From: Caldimicrobium sp.
GTDB taxonomy: Bacteria; Desulfobacterota; Thermodesulfobacteria; Thermodesulfobacteriales; Thermodesulfobacteriaceae
DNA: 37,478 nt
Reading direction: 5' to 3'
NCBI GenBank assembly: GCA_009903935.1
Contig: WYEG01000017.1
Coordinates: forward strand, 1 to 37,478
Shown: one piece after another, positions 5,328-27,898 of the stretch
Layout of the letters: the number at the start of each line of letters is the position of its first letter
Position numbering within the stretch: position 1 is the stretch's first letter
Position numbers and translations under genes: made by a program
Notes under the pieces: generated by a model
Databases searched by the model: none
Told to the model about the DNA's origin: nothing
Seen by the model: the letters and a program-made list of their open reading frames with translations, nothing else

Positions 5328-5355
5328 TTGACAAATCCTAAAGATTGTTTAATTT
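5328..5355 (+). promoter_or_regulatory. Promoter of the second coiled-coil gene, leaderless configuration
   Basis: TTGACA (5328-5333) with TAATTT (5350-5355) at a 16-bp spacing; alternative -10 boxes overlap it, so the exact one is uncertain. The expected transcription start is at or just before the ATG at 5363, and there is no Shine-Dalgarno sequence. The -35 box overlaps the right-hand direct repeat flanking element D. Confidence 0.55.
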
Positions 5356-5362
5356 AATGTTT

Positions 5363-6064
5363 ATGGAGCCTCAAACTACCGCTGAGATTACTCCTGAATA
5401 CATAAAACAGCTTATCTATTCTATTCTTCCCGAAGTCTTAGCTCAATACCGTGAGGATAGAGAAAGAGCCTTTTACAATCAACTTCTCGATAGATTGGTC
5501 CGTTTAGAAGAGGAGCTTAAAGCACTTAGAATAGAGATGAACATCAGGTTTGATGCTCTGATTAAGGAGATGAACACAAGGTTTGATGCTGTCATTAGAG
5601 AGATGAACGCGAGGTTTGAAGCTCAGAAACAAGAAAGCGATGCTAAATTTGAAGCTATAAACGCAAGGTTTGAAGCTTTGACTAAGGAGATGAATACGAG
5701 GTTTGAAGCTCTCATCAAGGAGATGAATACGAGGTTTGAAGCTTTGAAACAGGATAGCGATGCAAAATTTGAAGCAATAAATACGAGGTTTGAAGCGCAG
5801 AAACAAGAAAGCGATGCTAAATTTGAAGCCATAAACGCAAGATTTGAAGCCTTGACTAAGGAGATGAATACGAGGTTTGATACTCTCATCAAAGAGATGA
5901 ATACGAGGTTTGAAGCGCAGAAACAAGAAAGCGATGCTAAATTTGAAGCTATAAACGCAAGGTTTGAAGCTTTGGATAAAAGGCTGAGTTTTCTTCAGTG
6001 GTTGATTGTCTTTGGTTTTACCTTTATTTCTGTGGTCATCACTCTCCTTAATTTCTTCAAGTAG
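5363..6064 (+). CDS. Long coiled-coil, tail-anchored repeat protein
   Basis: No confident family. The 233-residue product (start at MEPQTTAEITPEY) consists from about residue 45 to 205 of eleven-residue units of the form RFEALIKEMNT or RFEAQKQESDA, interrupted regularly by seven-residue units KFEAINA. The composite RFEAQKQESDAKFEAINA occurs three times, almost identical in DNA too, showing recent internal duplication. Hendecads predict a nearly straight, right-handed coiled coil. Residues about 210-231 (LQWLIVFGFTFISVVITLLN) form one membrane span followed by FFK. The start at 5363 is preferred over an in-frame TTG at 5345, which lies within the promoter. It shares plan, promoter type, repeat neighbour and the start ATGGAGC with the gene at 1781. 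DUF1640-like function is possible but unproven. Confidence 0.75.
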   Translation: MEPQTTAEITPEYIKQLIYSILPEVLAQYREDRERAFYNQLLDRLVRLEEELKALRIEMNIRFDALIKEMNTRFDAVIREMNARFEAQKQESDAKFEAINARFEALTKEMNTRFEALIKEMNTRFEALKQDSDAKFEAINTRFEAQKQESDAKFEAINARFEALTKEMNTRFDTLIKEMNTRFEAQKQESDAKFEAINARFEALDKRLSFLQWLIVFGFTFISVVITLLNFFK

Positions 6065-6108
6065 AGCAAACAATCTTTTAGAAGTAAGCTTCAAAAGGAC
6101 AATCGCCT

Positions 6109-22630: not shown

Positions 22631-22666
22631 CTATAATTCCTGAGAAAGTATTTTAGGGGTTTGTCC

Positions 22667-24304
22667 ATGGAAGAGAATTTTAAAACGCTTCTTGAAGAGT
22701 ACTTTCAAAGGATGGATGCTCCGATAAAGGTTGGCGATGTGGTAAAGGGAGTTGTTGTTCATTTTGATGGAGAAAACTACTTTGTAGACCTTGGGGGAAA
22801 GGCTGAGGCTATCCTTCCAAAAACTGAAGTGGTTGAACCTGAGGAAATAAAGCTCGGAGAGGAGTTATCGGCCATAGTTACTCAAAGAGGACAAAGAGGG
22901 GTTTATGTTCTTTCGGTAAAAAAGCTCTTTGAAAAAAGGACAAGGGAGGAGTTTGAGGAGCTTTTTGCTAAGGGCTTACCCCTTAGGGTAAAGGTTATGT
23001 CTCCGGTAAAAGGGGGCTATGTTGTTAGCTTTAAAGGTGTGGTTTCTGCTTTTTTACCGGGATCTCAAGCTGAAAAAGACCCTGACTTTGTAGGAAAGGA
23101 GATAACCGTTCTTCCTCTTGAGAAGAAGGAAAATAGTTATGTTGTTTCTCAAAAGGCTTACCTTGCAAAGGAAAGGGAACTTAAAAAGAAAGAAATAGAA
23201 GAAAAGGTCCGTGAGGGGATACCTTTAGTAGGAAGGGTTAAGGCTAAGGTTAAGGGGGGTTTTATAGTAGACTTTGAGGGGGTCATTGCTGGATTTCTTC
23301 CCTTTTCTGAGCTTACCCATAGGAGGCTAAAAAGCCCTGAAGACTACCTTCAAATTGGGGATGAGGTTAGGGTCTCGGTCTTGTTCTATGACCCTATTCA
23401 AGGAAAGTTAAAAGTTAGTTTAAAAGCCTTAGAGAAGGACCCGTGGGCAGAGGTTTTAGAAAAATATCCTGTTGATAGCAGGCATGTTGGGACGGTAGTT
23501 GAGGTAAAGCCCTTTGGAGCTTTTGTTGAGCTTGAACCTGGGATTGAAGGCTTAATCCCAGCAAGCGAGGTCTCTTGGCAAAGGGGGCTAAAACCCCAGG
23601 ATGTGTTAAGCCAAGGGGATAGGGTAGAGGTTGTGGTGCTTGAAGTAAAGCCTGAAGAAAGAAGGATGATCCTTAGCCTTAAACGCCTGGAAGAAGACCC
23701 TTGGGAGGTTTTTGCAAGGGAGCATAAGGTAGGGGATATAGTTCATGGAAAGGTTAAGGGAGTCGTTGATTTTGGGCTTTTTGTGGAGGTAAGAGAGGGT
23801 GTAGTTGGCTTTGTCCATCGGTCAGAAGTAAGCTGGAAGCGAAACCTAAATCTAAAAGAGGCTTTTTCAGAAGGAAGCGAGGTCTCATCAAAGATCCTTG
23901 AACTAAGTCCCTCGGAAAAAAGGCTAAAGCTAAGCATCAAGGCTTTGGTCCCAAATCCCTGGGATGTAGCAAGCGAAACCTTAAAGCCTGGAACAAACAT
24001 TTCCGGAAAGGTCAAACAGATTTTACCCGGCAAGGGCTACCTCGTTGAGATAACTGAGGAAATATTAGGTTTTTTGCCCTTTCGGGAGGTCCCGCAAGGT
24101 GAAAAGTTTAAAGAAGGGGATAAAGTGCAGGGTAAGGTCATTCTTTTTGACCGGGAAAAGGAGCGGGTGCATCTATCTGTCATAGCTTTAAAAGAAGAGG
24201 AAGAAAGAATGTTAGCCCAGGAATACCTTAGCTCTCAGAGCCCTTCAGGAAGCCACACCCTGGGTCAAGTTTTGAAATCTTTGACTGAAAGAGAAGGCTC
24301 ATGA
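22667..24304 (+). CDS. rpsA: 30S ribosomal protein S1 (six S1 repeats)
   Basis: Ribosomal protein S1 helps bind and unfold mRNA at the 30S subunit. Six S1 OB-fold repeats are visible, beginning near KVGDVVKGVVVHFDG, LRVKVMSPVKGGYVV, VGRVKAKVKGGFIVDFEG, VGTVVEVKPFGAFVELEPG, VHGKVKGVVDFGLFVEV and ISGKVKQILPGKGYLVEI. Repeats 3-5 are the best conserved, each ending in the DPW or NPW signature. At 545 residues it has normal full length. ATG 22667 is preferred over TTG 22661 because AGGGG at 22651-22655 is better spaced from it. It overlaps sppA by ATGA. With an IHF-type gene two positions later it keeps the classic rpsA-ihfB neighbourhood. Confidence 0.93.
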   Translation: MEENFKTLLEEYFQRMDAPIKVGDVVKGVVVHFDGENYFVDLGGKAEAILPKTEVVEPEEIKLGEELSAIVTQRGQRGVYVLSVKKLFEKRTREEFEELFAKGLPLRVKVMSPVKGGYVVSFKGVVSAFLPGSQAEKDPDFVGKEITVLPLEKKENSYVVSQKAYLAKERELKKKEIEEKVREGIPLVGRVKAKVKGGFIVDFEGVIAGFLPFSELTHRRLKSPEDYLQIGDEVRVSVLFYDPIQGKLKVSLKALEKDPWAEVLEKYPVDSRHVGTVVEVKPFGAFVELEPGIEGLIPASEVSWQRGLKPQDVLSQGDRVEVVVLEVKPEERRMILSLKRLEEDPWEVFAREHKVGDIVHGKVKGVVDFGLFVEVREGVVGFVHRSEVSWKRNLNLKEAFSEGSEVSSKILELSPSEKRLKLSIKALVPNPWDVASETLKPGTNISGKVKQILPGKGYLVEITEEILGFLPFREVPQGEKFKEGDKVQGKVILFDREKERVHLSVIALKEEEERMLAQEYLSSQSPSGSHTLGQVLKSLTEREGS

Positions 24305-25185
24305 AGCGTCCTTGGTTGGTTTACGGATTAGCCTTTTTAGGTGGTCTTGTCCTTTTTCTAATCCTTCTATCCTTTATTTTTGCCCTTTTAGCAGGCTACA
24401 AACACTTTGACCTTGGGAAACCCAAGATAGGGGTTCTGGAGATAAAAGGTGTTATCCTCGATGCCGACGAGTATCTTTCTGCCATAAAGGAGTTTAGAAC
24501 CAGGCGGGATGTTAAGGCAGTTTTGGTAAGGGTTGAGTCTCCTGGCGGAGCCATTGGTCCAACTCAAGAGGTCTTTGAGGAGCTTAAAAAGCTTAGGAAA
24601 GAAAAGCCTATTTATGTTTCCATGGGTGGTGTTTCTGCGTCCGGAGGCTACTATGTATCCCTTGCTGGAGAAAAGATCTTTGCAAATCCTGGAACGATTA
24701 CAGGAAGCATTGGAGTTGTGATCGAGCTCCCAAACCTTGAAAAACTGTTTGAGAAGTTTGGGATTAAAAGCGAAACCATAAAGAGCGGAGAGTTTAAGGA
24801 TACAGGGAGCATTTACCGTGGTTTGACTAAAGAGGAAAGAGAATACCTAAAGGCCAAGGTCAATCAGTTGCACGAGCAGTTTGTTAGAGCTGTAGCCGAG
24901 GAAAGAAAGCTTCCTTTTGATAAGGTTAAAAGCCTTGCCGATGGTCGCATCTACACCGGAGAGGAGGCAAAGGCGCTAAAGCTTATCGACGAGCTTGGGA
25001 ACTACTACACGGCTTTAGAGGAGCTTAAAAAGAGGATAAATTTAAAAGAAGTGAAAATTCTGATTTTGCCGAGAAAAAAGGGATTTTGGGAAAGGTTTTT
25101 TGAGGAAAAAACAAGCCTTTCTGTGGAAAAGCTCCTCCAATCATTATATTTTCAACCCTTTTACCTAATTAAGCTTAACCTATGA
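24301..25185 (+). CDS. sppA: Signal peptide peptidase SppA, short (single-domain) type
   Basis: SppA is a membrane-bound serine protease that degrades cleaved signal peptides. At 294 residues it is the half-length, tetramer- or octamer-forming type. An N-terminal membrane anchor (about residues 6-31) precedes the protease fold. The catalytic Ser is S114 in VSASGGYYVS and the catalytic Lys is K166 in SGEFKDTGS, matching the Ser/Lys dyad of the family. ESPGGAIGPTQE near 79 forms the oxyanion region. ATGA overlaps on both sides tie it translationally to rpsA and to the HU-Ppx fusion gene. Confidence 0.93.
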   Translation: MKRPWLVYGLAFLGGLVLFLILLSFIFALLAGYKHFDLGKPKIGVLEIKGVILDADEYLSAIKEFRTRRDVKAVLVRVESPGGAIGPTQEVFEELKKLRKEKPIYVSMGGVSASGGYYVSLAGEKIFANPGTITGSIGVVIELPNLEKLFEKFGIKSETIKSGEFKDTGSIYRGLTKEEREYLKAKVNQLHEQFVRAVAEERKLPFDKVKSLADGRIYTGEEAKALKLIDELGNYYTALEELKKRINLKEVKILILPRKKGFWERFFEEKTSLSVEKLLQSLYFQPFYLIKLNL

Positions 25186-26372
25186 CGGGGAAGGATTTAG
25201 CCAAAAAGCTTTTATCGACCTTTCCTGACCTTGAGAGCGAGGTCGCCTTAAGCTTAACAAATGCCTTCTTTGAAACTCTAAAGTCCGCGATGAAAGATGG
25301 ACATTCCGTTGAGCTTCGAGGATTTGGGACCTTTCAGCCAAGGGTTTGCAAAGGGGTAATCTTTGTAAACCCAAAAAACAATCAGCGCTACTATGTGCAA
25401 GAAAAGAAAAGGGTAGTCTTTCGAACCGGAACAGAATTCCTTGAAAGATTAAACACCCCCTTTGATGCTGGGCTTGACCTTGGGACCCAGACCTTTAGGC
25501 TTATTCTTGGAAAGCACTTCGAGGATACTCCGTCCTTTCTCCTACGGGAGAGGGCAAATGTTAGACTTGGGGAGGGGCTTTGCGAAAGCGGATTAATTTG
25601 TGATGCAGCAAAGGAAAGAGGCTTTTCTGCTTTAAAGAATTTTAAAGAGATTTTAGATAGGTATGAGGTAAAAAACATCAAAGCCATAGGGACGGCGGTC
25701 TTCAGGAAGGCTAAGAACGCACTGGAGTTTATCGCTGAGGTTGAAAAAAGCTTTGGAATAAAGATAGAAATTTTAAGCCCGGAGGAAGAGGCAAAATATA
25801 CCTTAAAAGGTGTAAAGTTTGGGTTAGAGATGCTTGATTATAAACCAAAGTCTTTTGTCGTTGTTGATGTAGGGGGAGGTTCAACGGAGGTTATTTACTA
25901 TAAAGAAGACTTTGAGCCGATAATCTACAGCATAGACCTTGGAGTTGTCGCCTTGCGAGACTTTTTTGGTCTTCGTTATCCCTTGACTACGAAAGCCCTT
26001 CAATCTTTGAGAGACTATATCCGTGACAAACTAAAGGAGTTACCATACACCAAGCCAGAGATGCTGGTTATAACGGGAGGTTCGGCCTCTCTTCTTGGGT
26101 CTTTGGACCTAAAACTAAAAATTTACGATCAAAGAGCCTTACATGGGCACCGAATTACCCTTGAGAGAATTGCTAAGATGGCTCAGAGACTAACCAGTAT
26201 GACTTTATCCCAGCTCTCAAGGGTTAAAGGGATGGAAAGAGGAAGGGAAGACCTCGTCGCTCCAGCCTTATGCGTATACCTTGAGCTTTTATCATACTTT
26301 CAGCTTGATTCGGCGCTCATAAGCGAGTTTGGCATCCTTGAAGCTACTTTACTTTCCTTGTGGGGATTGTAA
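25182..26372 (+). CDS. Fusion of HU/IHF-type DNA-binding domain with Ppx/GppA phosphatase
   Basis: One uninterrupted frame of 396 residues has two domains. Residues 1-92 are a full HU/IHF fold: helical dimer part (MTGKDLAKKLLSTFPDLE), ELRGFGTFQPR, and the DNA-embracing arm VNPKNNQRYYVQEKKRVVF. Residues 95-396 are an exopolyphosphatase / pppGpp phosphohydrolase of the ASKHA fold, with GLDLGTQTFRLIL, VRLGEGL, AIGTAVFRKAKN, the catalytic Glu region LSPEEEAKYTLKGVK and the phosphate loop DVGGGSTEV. The linker is only a few residues and contains no start codon or ribosome binding site. The gene sits where ihfB usually follows rpsA and sppA. The expected activity is hydrolysis of polyphosphate or pppGpp while bound to DNA; that combination is inference. 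Confidence 0.88.
   Translation: MTGKDLAKKLLSTFPDLESEVALSLTNAFFETLKSAMKDGHSVELRGFGTFQPRVCKGVIFVNPKNNQRYYVQEKKRVVFRTGTEFLERLNTPFDAGLDLGTQTFRLILGKHFEDTPSFLLRERANVRLGEGLCESGLICDAAKERGFSALKNFKEILDRYEVKNIKAIGTAVFRKAKNALEFIAEVEKSFGIKIEILSPEEEAKYTLKGVKFGLEMLDYKPKSFVVVDVGGGSTEVIYYKEDFEPIIYSIDLGVVALRDFFGLRYPLTTKALQSLRDYIRDKLKELPYTKPEMLVITGGSASLLGSLDLKLKIYDQRALHGHRITLERIAKMAQRLTSMTLSQLSRVKGMERGREDLVAPALCVYLELLSYFQLDSALISEFGILEATLLSLWGL

Positions 26373-26410: not shown

Positions 26411-27897
<1,487 letters not shown>

Positions 27898-27898
<1 letters not shown>

Follow-up and report, generated by a model that had tools for sequence, protein, structure and literature searches.

An IHF-beta domain fused to a Ppx/GppA phosphohydrolase throughout the Thermodesulfobacteriales

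In Caldimicrobium sp. a domain of the IHF-beta type and a two-domain Ppx/GppA phosphohydrolase, an enzyme of the alarmone and polyphosphate family, are encoded as a single protein. The gene lies in a stretch of 37,478 nucleotides (GCA_009903935.1, contig WYEG01000017.1), which we refer to as the window. The architecture and the history of this fusion are well supported, and we regard it as a genuine, order-wide union of two known families. The best explanation we can offer for its role is that it forms an IhfA/IhfB-Ppx heterodimer with a nucleoid-tethered phosphohydrolase of the (p)ppGpp family, and that it arose from a single merger of neighbouring genes; our confidence in this combined account is about evenly balanced. 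The first-pass annotation of the window knew of no described function for the architecture. Our literature search, which mostly missed subscription journals, likewise returned nothing relevant and no description of an IHF-beta/Ppx protein, so as far as the literature searched goes the fusion is previously undescribed.

The gene (window 25182-26372, + strand) is one uninterrupted frame of 396 codons, and the other two forward frames across it contain 33 and 28 stops. Pfam places PF00216 at residues 1-91 (E 3.3e-16, 59.7 bits against a curated cut-off of 22.4) and PF02541 at residues 117-392 (E 3.9e-55, 187.7 bits against a curated cut-off of 27). An AlphaFold2 model, for which the input was an alignment of 28 fusions, is confidently two-domain (mean pLDDT 92.7, pTM 0.86); in this model the HU part closes with a helix that ends at residue 91, and residue 95 opens the first Ppx strand. 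The initial proposal that HU/IHF elements and Ppx/GppA motifs share a single frame is therefore confirmed by the open reading frame, Pfam and the structural model. The proposed linker of a few residues is indeed short, at three to four residues, and can now be narrowed to approximately residues 92-95, with the first Ppx strand starting at the last of these. The placement of the gene after rpsA and sppA also holds (Table 1). Elsewhere in the window, positions 5345-6064 (+) encode a coiled-coil-like protein in which units of the MNTRFEAL type are repeated and a hydrophobic segment lies at the C-terminus, and a long open frame (5504-6094, -) runs antisense to these repeats.

Table 1. Positions of the fusion gene, its functional elements and its neighbours in the window
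Feature	Position	Strand	Basis
rpsA (ribosomal protein S1), the classical ihfB neighbour	22661..24304	+	gene order
sppA (signal peptide peptidase)	24301..25185	+	stop overlaps fusion start codon (ATGA); same place in relatives
Fusion gene, 396 aa: IHF-beta domain and two-domain Ppx/GppA phosphohydrolase	25182..26372	+	single frame, Pfam, 39/41 genomes
IHF-beta domain, residues 1-92	25182..25457	+	best NCBIfam model, match to 1ihf chain B, tree
Glu44 and Arg46, separating IHF-beta from IhfA and HU	25311..25319	+	residue comparison
Arm tip Phe61-Val62-Asn63-Pro64	25362..25373	+	Pro64 retained; Phe instead of Gly61 in all fusions
Junction, residues 92-95 Thr-Pro-Phe-Asp	25455..25466	+	no indel; internal start codons not conserved
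Two-domain Ppx/GppA (ASKHA) phosphohydrolase, residues 95-396	25464..26369	+	TIGR03706, Foldseek, structure comparison
Phosphate loop D99-L-G-T-Q-T-F-R106	25476..25499	+	D99, Q103 and R106 invariant in fusions
Arg175 and Glu203 (R86 and E114 of D. radiodurans PPX)	25704..25790	+	39/39 fused, 55/55 unfused
Loop D229-V-G-G-G-S-T-E236 (D229 and E236 are D136 and E143 of D. radiodurans PPX)	25866..25889	+	invariant
Arg355, aligned with Arg267 of Aquifex Ppx/GppA	26244..26246	+	alignment to 2j4r
guaB (IMP dehydrogenase), conserved downstream neighbour	26429..27898	+	gene order

A fused frame can also be produced by a sequencing or assembly error that merges two genes. The probability of this is negligible here. 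A broken frame does occur in one relative, though inside the Ppx half, and the artefact reading is refuted by 39 aligned sequences that share the junction exactly, some of them from single-contig genomes and cultured strains. These sequences, the window's own among them, show no gap across residues 60-108. A frameshift error near position 25455, named at the outset as a result that would undo the fusion, is thereby excluded. The relative with the broken frame (G009) is a metagenome-assembled Thermosulfurimonas (L046 2550-3718; also L086), and as its close relatives are intact its frameshift is itself likely to be an assembly error. We also considered whether the Ppx half could be made as a product of its own, starting inside the gene. 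Near the junction no start codon position is common to more than 10 of the 39 fusions and nearly all are without a Shine–Dalgarno pattern, so this possibility was rejected. In close pairs dN/dS ranges from 0.03 to 0.12 in the HU half and from 0.05 to 0.30 in the Ppx half, showing purifying selection on both.

The fusion was found in 39 of the 41 genomes of the Thermodesulfobacteriales. Among named genera it is carried by Thermodesulfobacterium, Caldimicrobium, Thermosulfurimonas and Thermodesulfatator, cultured strains included. The protein is full length in most carriers, and in two (G029 and G038) the gene runs off the contig. The two assemblies without it (G001, 64% complete, and G023, 93%) are also without the adjoining guaB, so its absence there looks like incomplete assembly rather than loss. 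Two genomes have a second copy: in G019 the two differ in sequence (L007, L067), possibly as a result of a mixed bin, and in G016 two apparently identical copies lie on two contigs (L064, L065).

In a search of 395 genomes of the phylum, all sampled genomes of the order score at least 521 bits with the fused protein. The next-ranked matches drop to 295 bits, and those listed start at residues 71-95, corresponding to Ppx alone. No independent fusion outside the order was found among the listed matches from these genomes, nor any among the 80 best loci of a species-wide scan. In phylogenetic trees the fused Ppx domains form one clade (support 99/90, 100% of bootstrap trees), as do the fused HU domains (93/88, 98% of bootstrap trees).

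The surroundings of unfused relatives are informative about the origin of the gene. In one locus (L043, from G078) the order is cmk-rpsA-sppA-ihfB-ppx, unfused, with a gap of 20 bp between ihfB and ppx. Two others (L044 and L045) have cmk-rpsA-sppA-ihfB, then a gene on the opposite strand, then ppx-guaB-guaA; the full order in L044 is rpsA-sppA-ihfB-tsaC-ppx-guaB. In five loci from Desulfuromonadales and Geobacteraceae ihfB is immediately upstream of ppx, again unfused. In the tree the unfused Ppx proteins closest to the fusions (L092, L093, L123, L134, L044 and L045) are all encoded immediately upstream of guaB, and guaB adjoins the fusion in every fused contig of sufficient length. Because both fused halves are monophyletic and the genes are unfused neighbours in the outgroups, the simplest account is one ancient merger of adjacent ihfB and ppx genes in the ancestor of the Thermodesulfobacteriales. 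The earlier suggestion that an ancestral ihfB captured a ppx/gppA gene is right in that the N-terminal half goes back to an ancestral ihfB, but not in the capture, as the genes were already neighbours (L043, L044). The fusion shows how a conserved cluster of genes can give rise to a fused protein.

The first 93 residues have IHF-beta as their best NCBIfam HU/IHF model, yet they score 48.9 bits against an equivalog cut-off of 115 (NF001222), which the unfused ihfB of L043 exceeds with 118.1 bits. Judged by its sequence, the fused domain is derived from IHF-beta and resembles it, and is not an NCBI equivalog. Since the Ppx half filled the full-length fold search, the HU half was modelled and searched alone. 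The resulting model (residues 1-95) aligns with chain B of 1ihf over 94 of 94 residues, at a Z-score of 10.9. In a tree of only 94 columns the fused HU domains and unfused IHF-beta, that of E. coli included, form one group (85/90) apart from IhfA and HU.

Individual residues point the same way. All 36 fusions and all 11 unfused IHF-beta proteins compared have Glu44 and Arg46, which are absent from all 17 IhfA and all 30 HU proteins. The residue numbering of E. coli IHF-beta is that of the window protein, and in the 1IHF structure Arg46-beta enters the minor groove of the DNA (PMC8421141). The structure 1ouz shows the beta-E44A mutant on a variant site. At the tip of the arm all 36 fusions have Pro64 and Phe61 and Asn63 is invariant, but Arg62 is not conserved; 57 of 58 unfused HU/IHF proteins have Gly61. 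The arm-tip proline is the residue that intercalates in IHF (PMC8421141).

The altered arm tip, with Gly61 changed to Phe and Arg62 not conserved, could mean that the HU half does not bind DNA at all and is only a dimerisation or stabilising module. We consider this very unlikely: Glu44, Arg46, Asn63 and Pro64 are invariant, and in most close pairs purifying selection on the HU half is at least as strong as that on the Ppx half. A DNA-binding IHF-beta domain is the reading that we follow, although its binding may differ from that of E. coli IHF, given the change of Gly61 to Phe, the variable residue 62 and the state of its putative partner. In 11 of the 17 IhfA proteins of the order the arm-tip proline has been lost (to Leu, Phe or Val, with Phe in the window genome), but the fused IHF-beta always keeps it.

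That partner is encoded separately. Exactly three genes of the window genome encode HU/IHF proteins: the fusion, one of HU type (L001) and one of IhfA type (L002 1477-1782, -). The last of these sits between pheT and a merR-like gene, a position retained by IhfA across the order. The question of whether the genome holds another ihfB can be answered in the negative, the other HU/IHF genes being the IhfA-type gene after pheT and the HU-type gene. On gene content, then, the fusion is the only predicted IHF-beta of this genome, and an IhfA partner gene is available to it. Additional HU-like paralogues occur in some genomes of the order (L211, L212, L213, L216 and L218), and in the tree the one in L218 is placed weakly with the fused IHF-beta domain.

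For the enzyme half, the closest NCBIfam model is the exopolyphosphatase TIGR03706 (E 7e-59, 198.3 bits, under its cut-off of 307). The best Foldseek matches are to the Aquifex Ppx/GppA structures 1t6c, 1t6d and 2j4r, and Z-scores to solved Ppx/GppA proteins range from 29 to 39, with VIA-align 2 placing several other Ppx/GppA chains above that of Aquifex. In the window genome no Ppx/GppA other than the fusion exceeds the family cut-off, although a sub-threshold fragment occurs (C51), and in genomes of the order the fusion is usually the sole Ppx/GppA. Its Arg106 and Arg355 correspond in the alignment to two arginines of the Aquifex enzyme that are reported, for the ppGpp complex described in 2008, to contact the 3' phosphates. 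This pair was considered as proof of pppGpp specificity and rejected, because both residues are common in unfused Ppx proteins; Arg355, invariant in fusions, is found in 54 of 55 of them. The conserved catalytic centre of D. radiodurans PPX consists of D7, R86, E114, D136 and E143 (PMC11234463), and the equivalent residues D99, R175, E203, D229 and E236 are present in 39 of 39 fusions and in all 55 unfused relatives. Gln103 is fixed in the fusions, at a position where unfused Ppx proteins have Asn (42/55) or more rarely Gln (4/55). Phe61 (25362-25364) and Gln103 (25488-25490) are both constant across the fusions, and unfused relatives rarely or never have them.

These residues bear on whether the Ppx half is mainly a sensor, which binds (p)ppGpp or other nucleotides and alters bending by IHF, with catalysis of minor importance. 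A Ppx/GppA of the same fold was solved with ppGpp (6pc1), and a Gln fixed in the phosphate loop of the fusion could alter turnover. However, all of the tested catalytic residues are invariant, as would be expected in an active enzyme, and a sensor of this kind is in our view unlikely.

If the half is instead a working phosphohydrolase, its substrate has to be considered. The polyphosphate polymerases PPK1 and VTC were found in none of the 41 genomes of the order, and no PPK2 scored over its cut-off in any of them. A RelA/SpoT gene is present in 39 of the 41, as a single copy in each. The adjacent guaB encodes IMP dehydrogenase, which acts in guanine nucleotide synthesis. Taken together, the lack of these polymerases, the presence of RelA/SpoT and the adjacency of guaB make it plausible that the substrate is pppGpp or a related nucleotide, which we favour over polyphosphate. 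The original proposal had named both the stringent response and polyphosphate, and it is the latter part that these absences weaken. A caution is that PPK1 occurs in only 15 of 148 genomes of the phylum, so its absence is not special to fusion carriers; a link between the fusion and PPK1 loss is unsupported.

A nucleoid-bound exopolyphosphatase, clearing polyphosphate that competes with DNA for the arms of IHF, would turn the enzyme half to a different use. The nearest NCBIfam model fits this idea, as does the two-domain Rv0496 of M. tuberculosis, a short Ppx which cleaves short-chain polyphosphate and not pppGpp (PMC3411833); a short two-domain Ppx therefore need not hydrolyse pppGpp. Furthermore, polyphosphate works with Hfq in bacterial chromatin silencing (PMC10954037). 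With no PPK1, VTC polymerase or above-threshold PPK2 in any of the 41 genomes, we nevertheless judge this role distinctly unlikely.

We can now set out the mechanism that the preferred account implies, in which we infer the heterodimer, the bending of DNA, pppGpp as substrate and any cross-talk between the halves. The IHF half most likely dimerises with IhfA, which has a gene of its own, and would bend DNA in the manner of IHF, so that each heterodimer would hold one Ppx/GppA domain beside the bent DNA. The substrate of the enzyme half would be pppGpp, or a nucleotide related to it, synthesised by the single RelA/SpoT, and the reaction would remove a terminal phosphate. Binding of the alarmone may in turn influence how IHF is seated on the DNA.

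Another reading is that the loss of a stop codon joined two neighbours and that the product was tolerated, both halves working independently without regulatory coupling. The prior adjacency of the genes means that little change was needed, and each half conserves the residues of its own family. We find this rather doubtful, as the fusion has not split again in 39 genomes, the junction has acquired no indel, and changes are fixed in both halves, with F61 and Q103 in every fusion. The constant length of the junction together with these changes suggests that the arrangement matters. A stronger version of the coupled heterodimer is an alarmone-metabolising IHF, in which the sequence-specific DNA-bending protein is itself the pppGpp phosphohydrolase and its halves can affect each other. 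We put this forward tentatively, as a possibility with less than an even chance; if true, alarmone state and chromosome architecture would be set by one molecule across the order.

In enteric bacteria ihfB and rpsA are cotranscribed, and transcription of both ihf genes responds to (p)ppGpp (PMC8942017), which links IHF with translation or starvation signals. The connection found there between IHF and (p)ppGpp is transcriptional (PMC8942017), whereas here it would be covalent. Since an enzyme of the alarmone and polyphosphate family is built into IHF-beta throughout an order, a direct physical connection can be put to the test, and the fusion offers a natural case of a nucleoid protein bearing an enzyme.

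Four kinds of known system come closest to the fusion. IhfB/HimD shares its fold, Pro64, the DNA-contacting Glu44 and Arg46, a place near rpsA and a separate IhfA gene after pheT; however, the C-terminus of the fusion runs into an enzyme of 300 residues, Phe replaces Gly61 and Arg62 is not conserved. The HU-HIG family (PF18291), which matches the fusion only weakly and under its cut-off (20.9 against 26.2 bits), also has an HU fold joined to another domain, but according to the Pfam title its partners are wHTH, Ig or glycine-rich segments rather than an enzyme. The Ppx/GppA of Aquifex aeolicus (1t6c, 2j4r) is the closest solved relative by sequence, with 26% identity in the fold alignment. It has the same two catalytic domains and catalytic residues and, like the fusion, is without C-terminal domains III-IV, but it is not fused to a DNA-binding domain and has a phosphate-loop Asn (2j4r) in place of Gln103. 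The GppA/Ppx proteins of E. coli and Helicobacter pylori (6pbz, 6pc0-6pc3, 1u6z) share its catalytic domains, and differ from the fusion in having C-terminal domains that it lacks and no DNA-binding half.
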